From assembly GCF_002803985.1 (NCBI RefSeq), contig NZ_CP024963.1, forward strand, positions 558,001 to 622,000: 64,000 nucleotides of DNA, given 5' to 3'. Each line of letters begins with the position of its first letter. The first letter of the stretch is position 1. This document shows, in pieces, positions 6,844 to 37,234 of this stretch. The stretch comes from Williamsoniiplasma luminosum (GTDB lineage Bacteria > Bacillota_I > Bacilli_A > Mycoplasmatales > Mycoplasmataceae). The notes beneath the pieces are model-generated. The model searched no databases. It was not told the DNA's origin and saw nothing but the letters and a program-made list of their open reading frames with translations. A program made the translations under genes and the position numbers.

Positions 6844-8991
6844 CTAAATAACACAAGAATCACATTCGTAGTTTTCAGAATCTTCTAAAATTTCTTGACG
6901 GACACGAACATAATAAATTGATGCACATCCTTTATTAAAGGCACGAATATATGCTTTATTCAAGTCACGAGTTGTGGCTGTATCATTCATGAAAAGAGTT
7001 AATGAAATCGCTTGATCAACATGTTGTTGGGCCGCTGCTGCAATATCAATAATTGGATCTGGTCCTAGTTCATAAGCCCCAAGTGCATAATAACTCATAT
7101 TATCAAAATCGATATTGTAAGCCGGCACATAAACTCGACCCATTTTACCTTCTTTGCGAACTTCAACACTTGAAACAACGGGTTGCAAACTTGGGGTACA
7201 ACTTGCTAAGTAACTAATTGATCCAGTTGGGGCAACTGCTAATAGATGGGAATTTGCTAAACCGTGTTGTTGAATATTTTGAACTAAATTAATTCAATCT
7301 TGTTTGGTTGGAATAACAACATTGTATTTGGCAAAAACTTCTTGAATTTTTTTCGTTTCACATCTTCACTTGTCTTGTGAACATAAAGTATATTTATCAA
7401 AATATGTTCCATCTGCAAATTTCGTTTTGTGAAAATCTTTAAATGAACCATGAATTTTGGCTAATTTATTTGAAGCTTTAAAAGCATAATAAGCAACTGT
7501 ATAGAAGAACATATTCGTAAAATCAATGGCTTCTGGTGAATGATAATTAATTTTATGTGTTGCTAAAAATCCATGTAAATTCATTGCCCCAAGTCCAACC
7601 GCATGATTATTTTGATTGCCTTTTTCAATGCTTGGAGCTGATTTTAAACTGGTTTTTCTTGAAACATGATCTAAGGCATAAACTGCATTGTATATCATTT
7701 CTTCAAAATCAGCTCCAGCTTTGATTGCTTTATCAACATTTAAACTCCCTAAATTACAACAAACATCTTCCCCAATTTGAGCATAAGATAAGTCATCATT
7801 TAAAATACTTATTGTATTTGGTTGGGCAATTTCACTGCATAAATTTGACATCACAATTCGATTGGGATGAGCATTGCGATTATTGACAGTGTCATCAAAC
7901 AATAAGTAAGGGTAACCACTTTCAAAATGTAATTCAGCAATCATTTGGAATAATTTTCGAGCATTAATATAGGTTTTTCTGATCAACGGATTATTGACCA
8001 TCTTGTCATATTCTTGAGTGATGGAAATATCACTGAAAGGTTTTTGATAAATTTTTTCAACATCATATGGGCTAAACAAAGCCATTTCATCGTTTTGTTT
8101 AGCCAATTCAAAAGTAATATCTGGCATTACGATGCCAAGTGATAAAGATTTAATACGAATTTTTTCATCAGCATTTTCACGTTTAGTGTCTAAAAAAGTT
8201 AAAATTTCAGGATGATGAGCAGAAAGATAAACAGCTCCAGCCCCTTGTCTTTGCCCTAATTGGTTGGCATATGAAAAACTATCTTCTAATAATTTCATCA
8301 CCGGAACAATCCCTGTTGCTTGATTATGAATATTTTTAATTGGAGCACCAAATTCTCTTAAATTCGTTAAACATAAAGCGACACCCCCACCACGTTTTGA
8401 TAATTGCAACGATGTTGAAATTGCTCTTCCAATTGATTCCATGTTATCTTCAATCCGTAATAAATAACAACTTGTATATTCACCACGTTGTTTTTTACCA
8501 ACATTTAAAAATGTTGGTGTTGCTGGTTGATATCTTCCTAACATTAATTCTTTAATTATCTTTTTGGCAATTTCAACATCCCCATCACCAACAAAAAGAG
8601 CATTCATCACAACCCGATCTTCATAGTCTTCTAAAAAATATTTGTTATCAAATGTTTTGAGTGCATAAGCATTATAAAATTTTAGTATTCCCATAAAGCT
8701 TGGAAATTGATGATTAAAACTTAAAGCATAAGCAGTTAATTTTGCTAAATCTTGAATTGAATATTTAGCAATTAATTCTTGGTCATAATATTGGTTAGCA
8801 ACCAAAAACTCTATGCGTTTTTCAAAGCTATCAAATTGCATTGTATTAGGTTTGATGTGCTTTTCTTTATATAAAATTGCTGCTTGGCGATCCAAATGAT
8901 AATTGGCTTGATTATTGGAAAAAAGTTTGGATTTAGCATTTAAAGTAATGTATTCATCATTTTCAAATAATGAGTTATTTTTTGTTTTCAT
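6844..8991 (-). CDS. nrdE: Class Ib-type ribonucleotide reductase alpha subunit
   Basis: Catalytic subunit that reduces ribonucleoside diphosphates; 715 residues with one TGA-Trp splitting it. Active-site elements are visible: GEYTSCYLL (first redox Cys), SNLCSEIAQP (radical-bearing Cys), DVCCNLGSLN (second redox Cys), PTGSISYL, and the C-terminal Cys pair in YECDSCVI, which exchanges electrons with a glutaredoxin/NrdH-like donor. It starts one base after the nrdI stop. It works with the unusual NrdF encoded upstream, which delivers the radical. Confidence 0.96.
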
Positions 8992-8992
8992 T

Positions 8993-9472
8993 TTAATTTA
9001 TTCTCTTTTTTTCTGGTTCTTGGTTTCAAAAATTAATTAAAATCTTTTGAATTTGTTCAACATCTTTTGTGGTTCCTAAAAGTTCAAATTGATAGAGCAA
9101 TGGAACATTTAATTTTTTAGAAAGGATTGGTCCAGCAATCGCAAATGTGTCACCAAAATTGGTGTTTCCTGAAGCAATGACACCACGACAAGATTCTCTA
9201 TTTTCTTTTTTATTTAAAAAATTGATAACTTGTTTTGGCACAGCTCCACTTGTGAATTCTCCACCCCCACTATAAGTTGGAGAAAATAAAACATAATCTT
9301 GATTGACTGAAATTGTTTGATCAATTTCAGTCGGAATTCTAAAATTGGTAAACCCCAATTTTTGAATAAATTTATGAGTATTGTTGGAAGTTGATGAAAA
9401 ATAGACCACACAAATTTCACCAATTGGTTTAATAATGTCAGCATTATTTATTTTGATAATATCTTTGTGCAT
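8993..9472 (-). CDS. nrdI: NrdI flavodoxin-like activator of NrdF
   Basis: Flavoprotein that supplies the oxidant to NrdF. It has 159 residues from the ATG at 9472 (MHKDIIK); an upstream TTG would add five residues inside nrdF. Family motifs: VVYFSSTSNNTHKF (FMN phosphate loop), LFSPTYSGGGEF, GVIASGNTNFGDTF and the C-terminal YQFELLGT. One TGA-Trp sits near the end (INFWNQEPEKK). It lies between nrdF (2-nt gap) and nrdE (1-nt gap). In class Ie enzymes NrdI is required to hydroxylate the radical tyrosine, so its retention here fits. Confidence 0.94.
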
Positions 9473-9474
9473 AA

Positions 9475-10515
9475 TTAAAATTCCCAATCTGCATCTTCAG
9501 TTTCTTCACTCACACCCATCACATAACTCGAACCATTCCCTGAAAAGAAATCATGATTTTCATCAGCTCGAGCAGATAATTGAGCAAAAATTTCAGATTT
9601 GATTGTTGTTTCAGTTTCAGAAAAAGGTGAATCATAACCTAAATTTTGCAAAAATTTACCAGCATTATAAATGCTGAATTTAATCGCATCTTCAGCAATC
9701 TCAAACCCATCATATAATTCATATAAATACTCTTTTTCTAACTCAATCAATTCATACATTAAATCAAAAACAAATGTTTTCATTGCTTGTTGTTTTTCAA
9801 GTGATAATTTTTGTAATTTTTGTTGATACTTATAACCACTATAATAGTTGTGAATCACTTTATCACGTAAAATTAAACGCACAATATCAGAAGTATTTGG
9901 TAATTTTGCTCTTGCTGATAAATAAAACGGTAAATAAAATCCCCCGTACAGTAAAAATCCTGGCATTAAAGCTGCTGCGACCTTTGATTTCAACGGATCT
10001 TCACCAACATAATATGGAATTAAGGCTTTGGCACGCTTTTGCAAACTTTCACAATTAATCACTCATGTGTGAGCTTCTTCGATTTGTTCACTTGAACATA
10101 AAGTAGAAAAAATGGTTCCATAACTTCGGGCATGAACCCCAACCATAAAAGCAAAATTAGTATAAATAATTTGTTCATGATCGGTCAAAGAACTTGGCAT
10201 TTGACTTGTGTCTCCAATTGTTGCTTGAACAGTGTCAAGCAACGTTAAACCAGTAAAAGTTCTGGTAATTAATTGTTGTCAATCTGGGGTTAGGGTTTTT
10301 CATGAAGGTAAATCATTGGACACTGGAATTTTTTCAGGCAATCAAAAATTTTGGGTAATCCGATTTCACACCTCCAAATCTTTGTTGTCATTGATCACAT
10401 TTCAATTAATTGAACGAATATTGCCATTAAAACCATTTAAAGCATATTCGAGTGGAGACACTGATTCTTGATAATATTTATTTTTTTCATTTGTTTTGTA
10501 TTTGTTATTTGTCAT
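9475..10515 (-). CDS. nrdF: Ribonucleotide reductase beta subunit, metal-free class Ie (VPK) type
   Basis: Radical-generating subunit, 346 residues. Alignment by eye to class Ib NrdF shows Asp94 (LLDT), His128 (VGVHARSY) and His222 (DKVIHNYY) kept. The three other metal-ligand glutamates are replaced: Val125 (FMVGVH), Pro185 (ALMPGF) and Lys219 (RDKVIH). Tyr132 is the radical-tyrosine equivalent. The Val/Pro/Lys set defines one of the two known class Ie groups, described in Mollicutes, in which a DOPA radical replaces the dimetal cofactor. It is the first gene of the operon and is preceded by a riboswitch-like leader. Confidence 0.93.
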
Positions 10516-10661
10516 ATAAAATCTCTTTTCCTTTCTTGTGTATTTAACAATTGATTTTCAAGAAAATTTATTAGGGTTTAAAAATTTATTTGCTTTTTAG
10601 AGTCACTAAAAAGCATTAGATAATTTCTAATTTTCTTGATTTCAATTATTAGTTTTTGAAA

Positions 10662-10691
10662 TAAAAACACGATTTTTTTAAAAAAATCGTG
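10662..10691 (-). terminator. Leader terminator between the cobalamin-like aptamer and nrdF
   Basis: A 24-bp perfect palindrome (CACGATTTTTTT / AAAAAAATCGTG, 10668-10691) followed on the minus strand by TTTTTA. It lies about 60 nt downstream of the aptamer and 150 nt before the nrdF start, the position expected for a riboswitch expression platform. Confidence 0.8.
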
Positions 10692-10750
10692 GTCATATTT
10701 GGAAAAAGATTTTTAACCAACTTTTTCTGACCAGGAAAAAGAATAATTTT

Positions 10751-10890
10751 GAAAAGATAATAGGTCTCCTGACTCAAGTTCATCTCAATTATCGCCTTCT
10801 CGGTTGCCCAATGGCCTGGATAATTGATCCCTTTTACAGTTGCTGGTACAGTTTTGGCATTGAACCAAATTCCCTTAGCATTACTTTTCT
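10751..10890 (-). promoter_or_regulatory. Cobalamin-riboswitch-like aptamer in the nrdFIE leader
   Basis: Read on the minus strand, conserved blocks occur in the right order. They are AAGGGAA; GGTTCAATGCC; ACCAGCAACTGTAA (CGCAACTGT block); GGCCATTGGG (B12-box-like, GCCACTG); CCGAGAAGGC; and AGTCAGGAGACC (the family's 3' hallmark). Closing stem P1 is supported by GAAAAG-TAAT (10880-10889) with ATTAT-CTTTTC (10751-10761), and an internal stem by ATCAATTATC with GATAATTGAGAT. The terminator at 10662-10691 follows. I infer B12-responsive termination control of ribonucleotide reductase. Ligand specificity (adenosyl- or methyl-cobalamin, or altered) cannot be read from sequence. Confidence 0.85.
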
Positions 10891-11149
10891 GTTTTTATTT
10901 CAAAGTGATTTTCTCACATTTTTAATTAAAAAAAGTTTATTTGGCAAAATAAAAAAATTTATAAAAAATAAATTTTTAAAACCAATTTAAAAGTCATGGT
11001 TTTAAGATATGTTTTGTTTGGAATGAATAACTTTTTAAAAATAAAACTATAAAAGCAGTTGATTTTATTGAAATAAAATAGTAAAAAAATATGTAATCTA
11101 TTTAGAAAAGATTAAACACAAAGATTGATTTCAAAAAGGAAATTTTACT
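10891..11149. other. Divergent intergenic region between the nrd leader and a membrane-protein gene
   Basis: Very AT-rich, with no open frame of note. It must hold the nrd promoter on the minus strand and the promoter of the gene at 11150 on the plus strand, but I could not assign either confidently. Confidence 0.5.
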
Positions 11150-11998
11150 ATGAACCATATAGCTGAATACATCGTTGGGGTGATAGCGAGCATTCTAATT
11201 ATTAGCACCTTATTTATTTTTCGCAAATTTTGAGCCAAAACTGCAAAAACCTACTGAGTCAGAATTATTCTTGCTGGGTGAATGTTGGGGAATCAAATTT
11301 TTATTACAATTTTTCAAAATATCACATGAGATTGAGAACTATGTCATATTCTTGCATGATCATCAATTGTTTTAATGTTGATTCCAACAAAAATTCAAAT
11401 TGATCTTTTTATGCCCTTGGTAATGATTGGTCCGGTTTTAGCAATTGCTGGCGGGATTGTTGGAACTGCTAAAGATTATGGTTTTGATCATTATCGTTAT
11501 TACAATTACTATTTTGGACATTTAGGAATTCTTTTCAGTTACTTATATATTTATTTATATGATTTCACAGGTGCGCGTCTAACTTGGAAATCAATGAAAA
11601 GATCTGCCATATTTGCCTTATTACTTTTAACTTTTGTGATGATGTGAAACATGTCGCATTTACCAGCTGGCAGTGATCCATTAAAACCAGTTCCACCAGG
11701 TAAAATTCCAAGCGAATATTGAGGGGAAAATTACATTTATAAATACATTATTTATAATCTAGGACTAGGTAAATTAAGTTTATTAAATCAATATTTTGTG
11801 CTTATTTTCGGTTTTGGGCCAATAATTATGGTAATTGGTTGAACGTTGATGTTTTTTGCCAGACCAATTTATGAAAATCGTGGTGAACAAAAATTAAAAT
11901 TCAATCTTCAGGAAGATATTTTAGGGATTAAAACTACATTTACCAAATCAAACTATAAGAAAATTTGAGTAAATTTCAAAAGTAAAATCAAAGCTTAA
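11150..11998 (+). CDS. Polytopic membrane protein, YwaF/TIGR02206-like
   Basis: 282 residues with about six hydrophobic segments: residues ~7-25, 38-55, 70-90, 93-108, 123-140, 150-168 and 222-242. Motif-like features are WELCHILAWSS around residue 65, YYFGHLGILFSYLYIYLYD around 130, and MSHLPAGSDPLKPVPPG between two membrane spans. This resembles the YwaF-type family of Mollicutes membrane proteins, whose function is unknown. It starts at ATG 11150 behind AAAAAGGAAATT. It is a single-gene unit ending in a strong terminator. Many Trp are TGA. Confidence 0.7.
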
Positions 11999-35200: not shown

Positions 35201-37234
35201 ATTAACGATGATATCGTACTGAACATATTTTTCATTTGGTTTCAATCCTAGATTTTGATCTAATAATTCTTTTTTAAATATGTTATCATAAACTTCAATG
35301 GGTTCACCATTTACAGTTACAGTTTCTTTAGCACTTTTTGAAGAGGCAAATTCAAAATCAACTTTATTATGATAAACAAAGGTTGGTTTCTCTTTATCTC
35401 AAATCAACTCCGGTTCATCTAATACAGATTTTCCTGGATTTTTTGGGTCAATCATATTTCCTGGTTTAATTGATATTCTTTGCAAAAATGATCTATTTAA
35501 AGCAATTGCAGTTGGCCTAACATTAACCTTTATTGGAATATTTTGAATTCATTGTCCTTCATTAATTAAACTCTGAGCATCTTTAAATTGAATAATCACT
35601 TTATTTTCTTCTTGAACAAATTTTTTGTTTGTAATTTCTAGATTGTTAGCAATAGCTGGATGAGAATTCGTCAAAGTTTTAAAACGTTTATCAATTTCTC
35701 TTTCAATTACTTGTTTATTGTTTAAACCTTTGTTCGGACTTCCATCTTGATCATCTATAATACTTTCATTGTTCATAATTGGGGAAGTATTGGTTATCAA
35801 ATCAAAAGGTGTTTTAGCAAAAACATCATTGATTTTTGAAGTAATCCCATTTTTATCAAATTTAACTTTAACATGAATGTTATATTCTAATTTAAATTTT
35901 TTTACAAAATCTGCATTCACACCTTCTCTTTTTTTAAATTCAACTTTTAAAAAACCTTGTGATGAATTGTTAGGATCGTTTTTATTTCAAGTAAAAATAG
36001 GCTTGTCTAAATCAATGTATTTATTTCATTGTTTATTGTTTTTGAATTTGCTGATACGTGCAGTTACTTCTTGTATTGTTAAATCTTTATTAGAAGTTAA
36101 ACTATTGTTGCCAGATCAAATATCAATTGTATTTGTAGAATCTATGTGTTGTGATGTTGTACTTTCAAATTCAATATTTTTTATAAATTCATCACTATTA
36201 GCAAAGTCAATTGTTTTATCATCAAATTTAATTGTAACTGGCATTTCAAAATCTGTTTTGAATTTGTTTTCAATAGTAGAGTTGACACCACGTTTATTTA
36301 ATTTAATTTTAATAACTCCATTTGATACAGCCTCGTTAATTGAAAATTGTGGATTATCTAAATCAATATAGCTATTTCATTCATCTTTGTTTGGAAGATT
36401 TTTGACTCTTCTTTTAATTTCATCAGAAATTTTTGCTTGATTTGATGAATCTCCAGACCCAGTTCAATGATTAATTGTTTCTGTAGAATTAATTCATGGA
36501 GAAGTAAAAGAATTAATTTGAAAATGAGATTGTATTTGTGCTGTATAATTTGATAAATCGGAAGAAAAATCGTAAGAAGTTTTGAAAGTTATGTCACCTA
36601 ATATAATTTCAGCAGAAACCTCCGGACTTCAAAAAGCAGTGTTTCTTCAAGTTTGTGCTCAAATCTCCGCTTTTATATAAATATTTCCATTTTCTTCATA
36701 TAAATGAACACCAGCTGCTGCCTTAGCAGTTGAACTTGATCCACCATGATTTGCTGAAATGCTTGAATTTAAATGAAATTTAGGGGCATTCTCCAAACTA
36801 ATATCTGGAGGAGTAGATTGTGTGATTGTGTTTGTATTAATAACAGGATTTTGATTAGACTTATCATTGGTTTGGGGCGTATAAGATGCGTAACCTTTTG
36901 TAATAAATCTTGGAGTATTTATTTGAATCTCGGGGTATTTTTGCTTAAATTCTTCAAAAGAATTTGCATATGTTTTTCAAGAAATCAAAAATTTATTATC
37001 TTTTTTATTGTCGGATCAATCATAGCCTTCATGCTCAAGCTTTAAATTTTCTAACGGGTTTCCAATTGTGAAACTCGGGTATGTTGGATCGATTGTTCTG
37101 ATATTTTTTTGCTCTAATTGTTTAGATTTCAATTGTTCCAATTTCTTAGCTAAGTTTTGAGTATATGAAACAGTAAAAGATGTTGAGACAAGTAATGAGC
37201 TAGTTAGTATTGTTGAAAATAGTAATTTTTTCAT
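32225..37234 (-). CDS. Giant surface-anchored protein (1669 aa)
   Basis: One reading frame through many TGA-Trp codons; standard-code pieces are all in register. MKKLLFSTILTSSLLVSTSF is a Sec signal peptide without a lipobox. The ectodomain has repeated ~100-150-residue units around KNNKQWNKYIDLDKP and ISKIND-type strands. Near residue ~1500 there is an Ig-like (Big2-type) module (MTVGDKNKIITVDIENP, KASVNYAGKIVLQAIAEGTVTITV). A Pro-rich spacer of DPGPIDPEKP repeats and a single C-terminal membrane span (IIPLALIGVGLIFFIG) with an Arg/Lys-rich tail follow. Likely displayed on the cell surface; adhesion or mating-pair contact is my inference. Third gene behind leader E. Confidence 0.8.

Follow-up and report, generated by a model that had tools for sequence, protein, structure and literature searches.

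A predicted adenosylcobalamin-responsive OFF switch at the class Ie ribonucleotide reductase operon of Williamsoniiplasma luminosum

Introduction

Why would a Mollicute whose genome measures about 1 Mb place a leader resembling a cobalamin riboswitch ahead of nrdF-nrdI-nrdE, an operon for a B12-independent ribonucleotide reductase (RNR), and what would such a leader do there? Class Ie RNR, the kind encoded here, is usually viewed as a response to metal starvation. The question was raised by a sequence-only reading of the locus in Williamsoniiplasma luminosum, and it is addressed here by covariance-model and profile searches, folding, and comparison of 198 sampled Mycoplasmatales genomes. The window (the whole 64,000-nucleotide stretch that was analysed) is C1:558001-622000 of a single-contig genome of 1,031,560 bases, read with genetic code 4, and coordinates without a contig prefix refer to it.

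A complete cobalamin aptamer in the nrdF leader

The leader upstream of nrdF matches the cobalamin riboswitch family RF00174 with 74.4 bits against a cut-off of 31.5 (E = 1.8e-16), and the alignment spans model positions 1-189 of 189, that is, its full length. In the Rfam scan of the entire 64-kb window this was the sole family to exceed its cut-off, and RF01510, the 2'-dG-I riboswitch family, had no match anywhere in the window, the nrdF leader included. P4, L5, the peripheral arm GCCAUUGG..CCGAGAAGGC and the B12 box AGUCAGGAGACCU are all present. Peripheral arms of this type are usual in aptamers of the adenosylcobalamin (AdoCbl) type, also called Cbl-I.

10742-10925, minus strand: cobalamin riboswitch aptamer (RF00174, covariance model), with the arm GCCAUUGG..CCGAGAAGGC
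10843-10847, minus strand: L5 segment ACCAG, kissing-loop partner of L13 (complement of CUGGU; compensation in relatives)
10762-10774, minus strand: B12 box AGUCAGGAGACCU (alignment to the RF00174 consensus)

The cobalamin-like leader proposed by the sequence-only reading is thus a match to the whole RF00174 model, and its extent needs correction. The interval first given, 10662-10890, does overlap the riboswitch, but its 5' limit falls about 35 bases short of the true aptamer start at 10925, and the stretch 10741-10663 within it is the expression platform, which lies beyond the aptamer. A phage origin of the leader was also considered and was rejected, with no match.

The expression platform

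On the 3' side of the aptamer, the P13 hairpin comes first, followed by an antiterminator strand, a terminator and then nrdF-nrdI-nrdE.

10721-10741, minus strand: P13 hairpin CUUUUU-CCUGGUCAG-AAAAAG, with L13 CUGGU at 10734-10730 (fold; covariation)
10728-10733, minus strand: 5' strand of the antiterminator, UGGUCA, overlapping L13 and pairing with 10695-10690
10690-10695, minus strand: 3' strand of the antiterminator, UGACCA, with two bases in common with the terminator stem (fold; covariation)
10663-10691, minus strand: intrinsic terminator, stem CACGAUUUUUUU/AAAAAAAUCGUG followed by a U run (terminator search)

The perfect terminator that had been read ahead of nrdF is there, and its stem is perfect yet A/U-rich, with only three G-C pairs. 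Three terminator-like sites were counted in the region against 0.2 expected from shuffles, and the stem end AUCGUG-UUUUU is conserved across the genus and in six reduced leaders of further genomes. A sub-threshold match to RF04134 in the leader proved to be the terminator hairpin itself and was set aside. Past the terminator, the nrdF leader holds a second hairpin of 10 pairs (UGCUUUUUAGUGACUCUAAAAAGCA, 10591-10615, minus strand).

Comparison of leaders provides evidence for the remaining elements. In 15 leaders, four of the six P13 pairs are changed on both sides; P13 and the antiterminator taken together have 22 cells with changes on both sides, where shuffles give 6.3, and 96.1% of their cells are paired against 41-58% in slid versions. 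The antiterminator reads UGGUC/GACCA in the genus of W. luminosum and UGGCU/AGCCA in relatives, which is a compensatory change. L5 (ACCAG, 10847-10843) is complementary to L13 (CUGGU, 10734-10730), and relatives have compensated pairings of this kissing loop, e.g., CCUAG/CUAGG. Across 52 leaders, the L5 complement located in a hairpin loop has a mean of 4.1 bases, compared with 3.3 in 500 shuffles (maximum 3.8).

The bases of L13 are common to P13 with its kissing loop and to the antiterminator, so that the two arrangements are mutually exclusive. Because the kissing loop and the antiterminator compete for L13, ligand binding is predicted to favour termination. In the minimum-energy fold, nine terminator pairs persist alongside the antiterminator, and since its overlap with the terminator stem amounts to just two bases, the route to readthrough is one that we infer.

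The nrdF-nrdI-nrdE operon

The three genes were read with genetic code 4 and identified by NCBIfam models; the start codon of nrdF lies about 150 bases downstream of the terminator U run.

9475-10515, minus strand: nrdF, class Ie (VPK) R2 subunit (NF010572, 604 bits)
8993-9487, minus strand: nrdI, flavodoxin-like activator (TIGR00333, 188 bits)
6844-8991, minus strand: nrdE, R1 subunit (TIGR04170, 960 bits)

In the VPK variant of class Ie, three metal-ligand glutamates are replaced by V, P and K (PMC11846895). NrdF of W. luminosum has V125, P185 and K219 as these replacements, its best PDB match is 6gp2, and its NrdI partner, a further mark of class Ie, is encoded in the same operon. Judged by these residues and this partner, NrdF is, as had been proposed, a class Ie RNR subunit, and of the VPK kind; metal-free activity with a DOPA radical is predicted for it. 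Divergent from the riboswitch lies a gene for a TMEM164-family membrane protein (11150-11998, plus strand; PF14808, 49.5 bits).

Cobalamin uptake, adenosylation and use in the genome

Control of a class I RNR by B12 had been taken to imply a class II enzyme elsewhere in the genome, together with a cobalamin importer, and the searches recovered both. The AdoCbl-dependent class II enzyme NrdJ is encoded at C1:531609-534089 (NF005991, 1226 bits against a cut-off of 854; TIGR02504, 552 against 400); its 826 amino acids are free of stops under code 4 and include the NPCGEQ and FFNC motifs. No cobalamin leader was found ahead of nrdJ in this genome, and NrdD, the class III RNR, is absent from it.

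A further RF00174 match, outside the window at genome positions 36842-37000 (72.9 bits), precedes the gene of an ECF S component, and the platform of this riboswitch is almost identical in sequence to that of the nrdF leader. A profile search of the PDB with the S component and its riboswitch-linked relatives gave one match, 6fnp_A (E = 7.2e-15), which we take to be CbrT, an ECF cobalamin transporter. The search for a transporter led to a component behind a sister riboswitch that, by profile, would be a CbrT-type cobalamin ECF component. A CobA/BtuR adenosyltransferase is encoded at C1:162681-163202 (PF02572, 163 bits against 25.7); the PduO type (PF01923) is absent from the genome, and CobA is the type that was found. 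A sub-threshold match to the B12-binding domain PF02310 lay inside an IMP dehydrogenase-like frame and was rejected. On these assignments, the genome has genes for importing, adenosylating and using B12 as well as a predicted sensor of it.

Further proteins accompany cobalamin riboswitches in this group. Behind the CbrT-type gene lies a gene for a small protein that is anchored in the membrane and matches no Pfam family; in the relative G036, a protein of about this size that is linked to a riboswitch has a weak match to DUF4430. Small single-pass membrane proteins also lie near cobalamin riboswitches at L003:5616-6113 (minus strand), L046, L061 (DUF4430, 22.6 bits, just below the cut-off), L067 and L076. 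They may serve the transporter as corrinoid-binding partners at the cell surface. A family of putative lipoproteins of about 330 amino acids, likewise without a Pfam match, recurs behind cobalamin riboswitches in genus g6 and related genomes (L048, L050, L051, L052, L059, L078 and L046).

Distribution across the Mycoplasmatales

RF00174 exceeds its cut-off in 32 of the 198 Mycoplasmatales genomes sampled, and the leader type is therefore not peculiar to W. luminosum. The genes behind these riboswitches are nrdF operons (15 genomes), CbrT-type S components, nrdD-nrdG and a deoxynucleoside operon. Association with NrdJ was assessed in the 79 sampled genomes that have this NrdF. A riboswitch stands at nrdF in 14 of 18 genomes with NrdJ, intact or broken, versus 1 of 61 without it (Fisher p = 3e-11), and in 11 of 14 versus 4 of 65 when only intact NrdJ is counted (p = 5e-8), the tests treating genomes as independent and ignoring kinship. 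CbrT occurs in 24 genomes, every one of which has NrdJ (p = 3e-22, genomes again taken as independent), and FecCD-type ABC operons in three genomes with NrdJ are preceded by weak RF00174 matches (24-30 bits). Relatives also have sub-threshold RF03531 matches, which lie upstream of the nrdF leader.

The association has exceptions. G115, of the same genus (L224), and G076, of the same family (L191), have intact NrdJ, CbrT and CobA and an nrdFIE leader with no detectable cobalamin riboswitch, and riboswitch control at nrdF appears to have been lost or replaced in both. B12 control of nrdFIE is thus not indispensable in organisms with NrdJ.

Beyond nrdF, the sensor stands at other routes to deoxynucleotides. 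G109, which has NrdJ and a riboswitch-led nrdFIE, also has a cobalamin riboswitch ahead of nrdD-nrdG, the class III RNR (L056:1501-4561). In eight genomes of genus g6 (L057, L058, L065, L068, L075, L086, L088 and L089), the riboswitch precedes a deoxynucleoside-salvage operon with genes for a purine-nucleoside phosphorylase, a deoxynucleoside kinase, a transketolase, a KDPG-type aldolase and a nucleoside deoxyribosyltransferase; this operon is eroded in G144. No RNR of class I, II or III was detected in the g6 genomes G094, G112, G144, G189 and G195, all of which retain cobalamin riboswitches at the deoxynucleoside operon.

Mesoplasma (g2) and the genera g5 and g7, none of which has NrdJ, carry a 2'-dG-I riboswitch as the nrdF leader (RF01510; L185-L190, L194, L195, L197 and L209). 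The matches score 52-89 bits, and two of them, at 51.8 bits, barely clear the cut-off of 51. The proposed presence of such riboswitches at nrd genes of Mesoplasma is hereby confirmed.

Decaying and reduced leaders

Intact, reduced and vanished leaders in related genomes form a natural experiment on the fate of a riboswitch after loss of its ligand pathway. In G079, NrdJ, CbrT and CobA are broken and the riboswitches are weak (45 and 38 bits), and in G091 the leader is reduced to scraps. Six genomes of the Spiroplasma type (g3) have one reduced cobalamin-like leader each, always at nrdF: G037 (L103), G057 (L098), G103 (L101), G106 (L211), G124 (L099) and G150 (L212). NrdJ, CobA and a strong CbrT match are absent from all six.

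P4 and L5 survive in the reduced leaders, as does most of the B12 box, and a short hairpin stands in place of the peripheral arm, with two pairs changed on both sides in one genome. Model R1 gives them 99-113 bits, by construction. Their P13/antiterminator/terminator platform is almost invariant. In four of these genomes, leader identity is 0.81-0.93, versus 0.69-0.77 at nrdF third positions and 0.66-0.79 in the untranslated stretch past the terminator. As leader identity lies above both, selection on the reduced leader is indicated; the comparison points to a leader maintained though every tested B12 gene except the sensor is missing. It is conceivable, if rather doubtful, that it has become adapted to a ligand different from AdoCbl, by analogy with the origin of the 2'-dG switch from guanine switches. 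An attenuator that needs no ligand, or a relic in slow decay, would fit as well.

Proposed mechanism and alternatives

Taken together, the aptamer, its platform and the genomic setting suggest that the nrdFIE leader is an AdoCbl-responsive OFF switch acting through premature transcription termination, a reading to which we assign a probability of about 0.88. With AdoCbl bound, L5 would hold L13 in P13 and the antiterminator would be blocked; the full terminator could then form and nrdFIE would be silenced, leaving NrdJ, which needs no O2, to supply deoxynucleotides. In the absence of AdoCbl, UGGUCA would pair with UGACCA and take the two bases at the foot of the terminator stem, beside the U run, and this loss next to the U run would be sufficient for readthrough. 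The metal-free, O2-dependent class Ie enzyme would thus be made only when B12, and hence NrdJ, is lacking, and low AdoCbl would simultaneously raise cobalamin import through the sister riboswitch.

The leader could instead be a vestige from a B12-using ancestor that now neither binds nor regulates. The decay seen in G079 and G091 is what such a history would look like, but NrdJ, CobA and CbrT are intact in W. luminosum itself, its aptamer fills the whole RF00174 model, the platform has compensatory pairs, and both the sister copy and the copies in G153 share the architecture of the nrdF leader; the vestige is accordingly very unlikely. We give no more room to the idea that AdoCbl turns nrdFIE on, or that another ligand is sensed. 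Deoxynucleoside sensing would suit the operon, and 2'-deoxyguanosine is the obvious candidate given the 2'-dG-I switches that Mesoplasma and two more genera without NrdJ have at this operon. Against this, RF01510 has no match in the window and the aptamer belongs to the cobalamin family. The platform, moreover, is common with the cbrT copy, where feedback repression by B12 is expected, and the sharing of L13 between kissing loop and antiterminator predicts OFF with ligand.

Least credible is control at translation. The computed fold, in which the antiterminator leaves the terminator partly formed, speaks in its favour. The nrdF start, however, lies some 150 bases past the U run, P13 and the antiterminator stop short of its ribosome site, and the AUCGUG-UUUUU stem end is conserved in the genus and in six further genomes. 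An AdoCbl OFF switch by termination remains the preferred reading.

Relation to known systems

The closest precedent is Streptomyces coelicolor nrdABS, where, as one account relates, an AdoCbl riboswitch precedes a class I RNR with class II NrdJ alongside (PMC4991794, describing Borovok et al. 2006). As there, W. luminosum combines an AdoCbl-type riboswitch, a B12-independent class I RNR and NrdJ in the genome, with the same presumed logic. The Streptomyces RNR is, however, class Ia, and that of W. luminosum class Ie with NrdI. Streptomyces coelicolor is an actinobacterium that synthesises its own B12, whereas W. luminosum, which reads code 4, would import it.

Measured against ordinary Cbl-I riboswitches of RF00174, the leader shares the whole aptamer, the B12 box, the L5-L13 kissing loop and the peripheral arm; its platform is short and A/U-rich, and otherwise ordinary. 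The two riboswitches of W. luminosum sit at nrdFIE and cbrT, those of relatives at nrdFIE, nrdDG, cbrT and FecCD-type ABC genes, and the S component at the sister riboswitch falls in the same family as the 6fnp transporter by profile search. The 2'-dG-I switch of Mesoplasma florum likewise precedes an orthologous nrdFIE and has no sequence relationship to the W. luminosum leader. It is a purine-type aptamer that senses a product, deoxyguanosine, whereas the leader described here is predicted to sense the cofactor of the alternative enzyme. One order is thus divided between a predicted cofactor sensor, often present in lineages with NrdJ, and a product sensor in Mesoplasma and two genera without it.

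These findings give B12 a likely role in Mollicute metabolism, namely the choice of enzyme for DNA precursors, with nrdFIE, nrdDG or deoxynucleoside salvage often under the cofactor sensor where NrdJ is kept, and with a predicted metal-free class Ie RNR paired with a cobalt-cofactor enzyme. Streptomyces already offers a precedent for this control logic. What is new is its breadth in Mollicutes, including nrdDG and the deoxynucleoside-salvage operon, as well as the reduced, conserved cobalamin-like nrdF leader in six Spiroplasma-type genomes. Among the openly accessible papers searched, none connects cobalamin or B12 riboswitches to Mollicutes or Spiroplasma, although a paper on chlamydiae does bring Spiroplasma, cobalamin and ribonucleotide reductase together. 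The mere occurrence of the riboswitch in Mollicute genomes may already be on record, for instance through automatic Rfam annotation.
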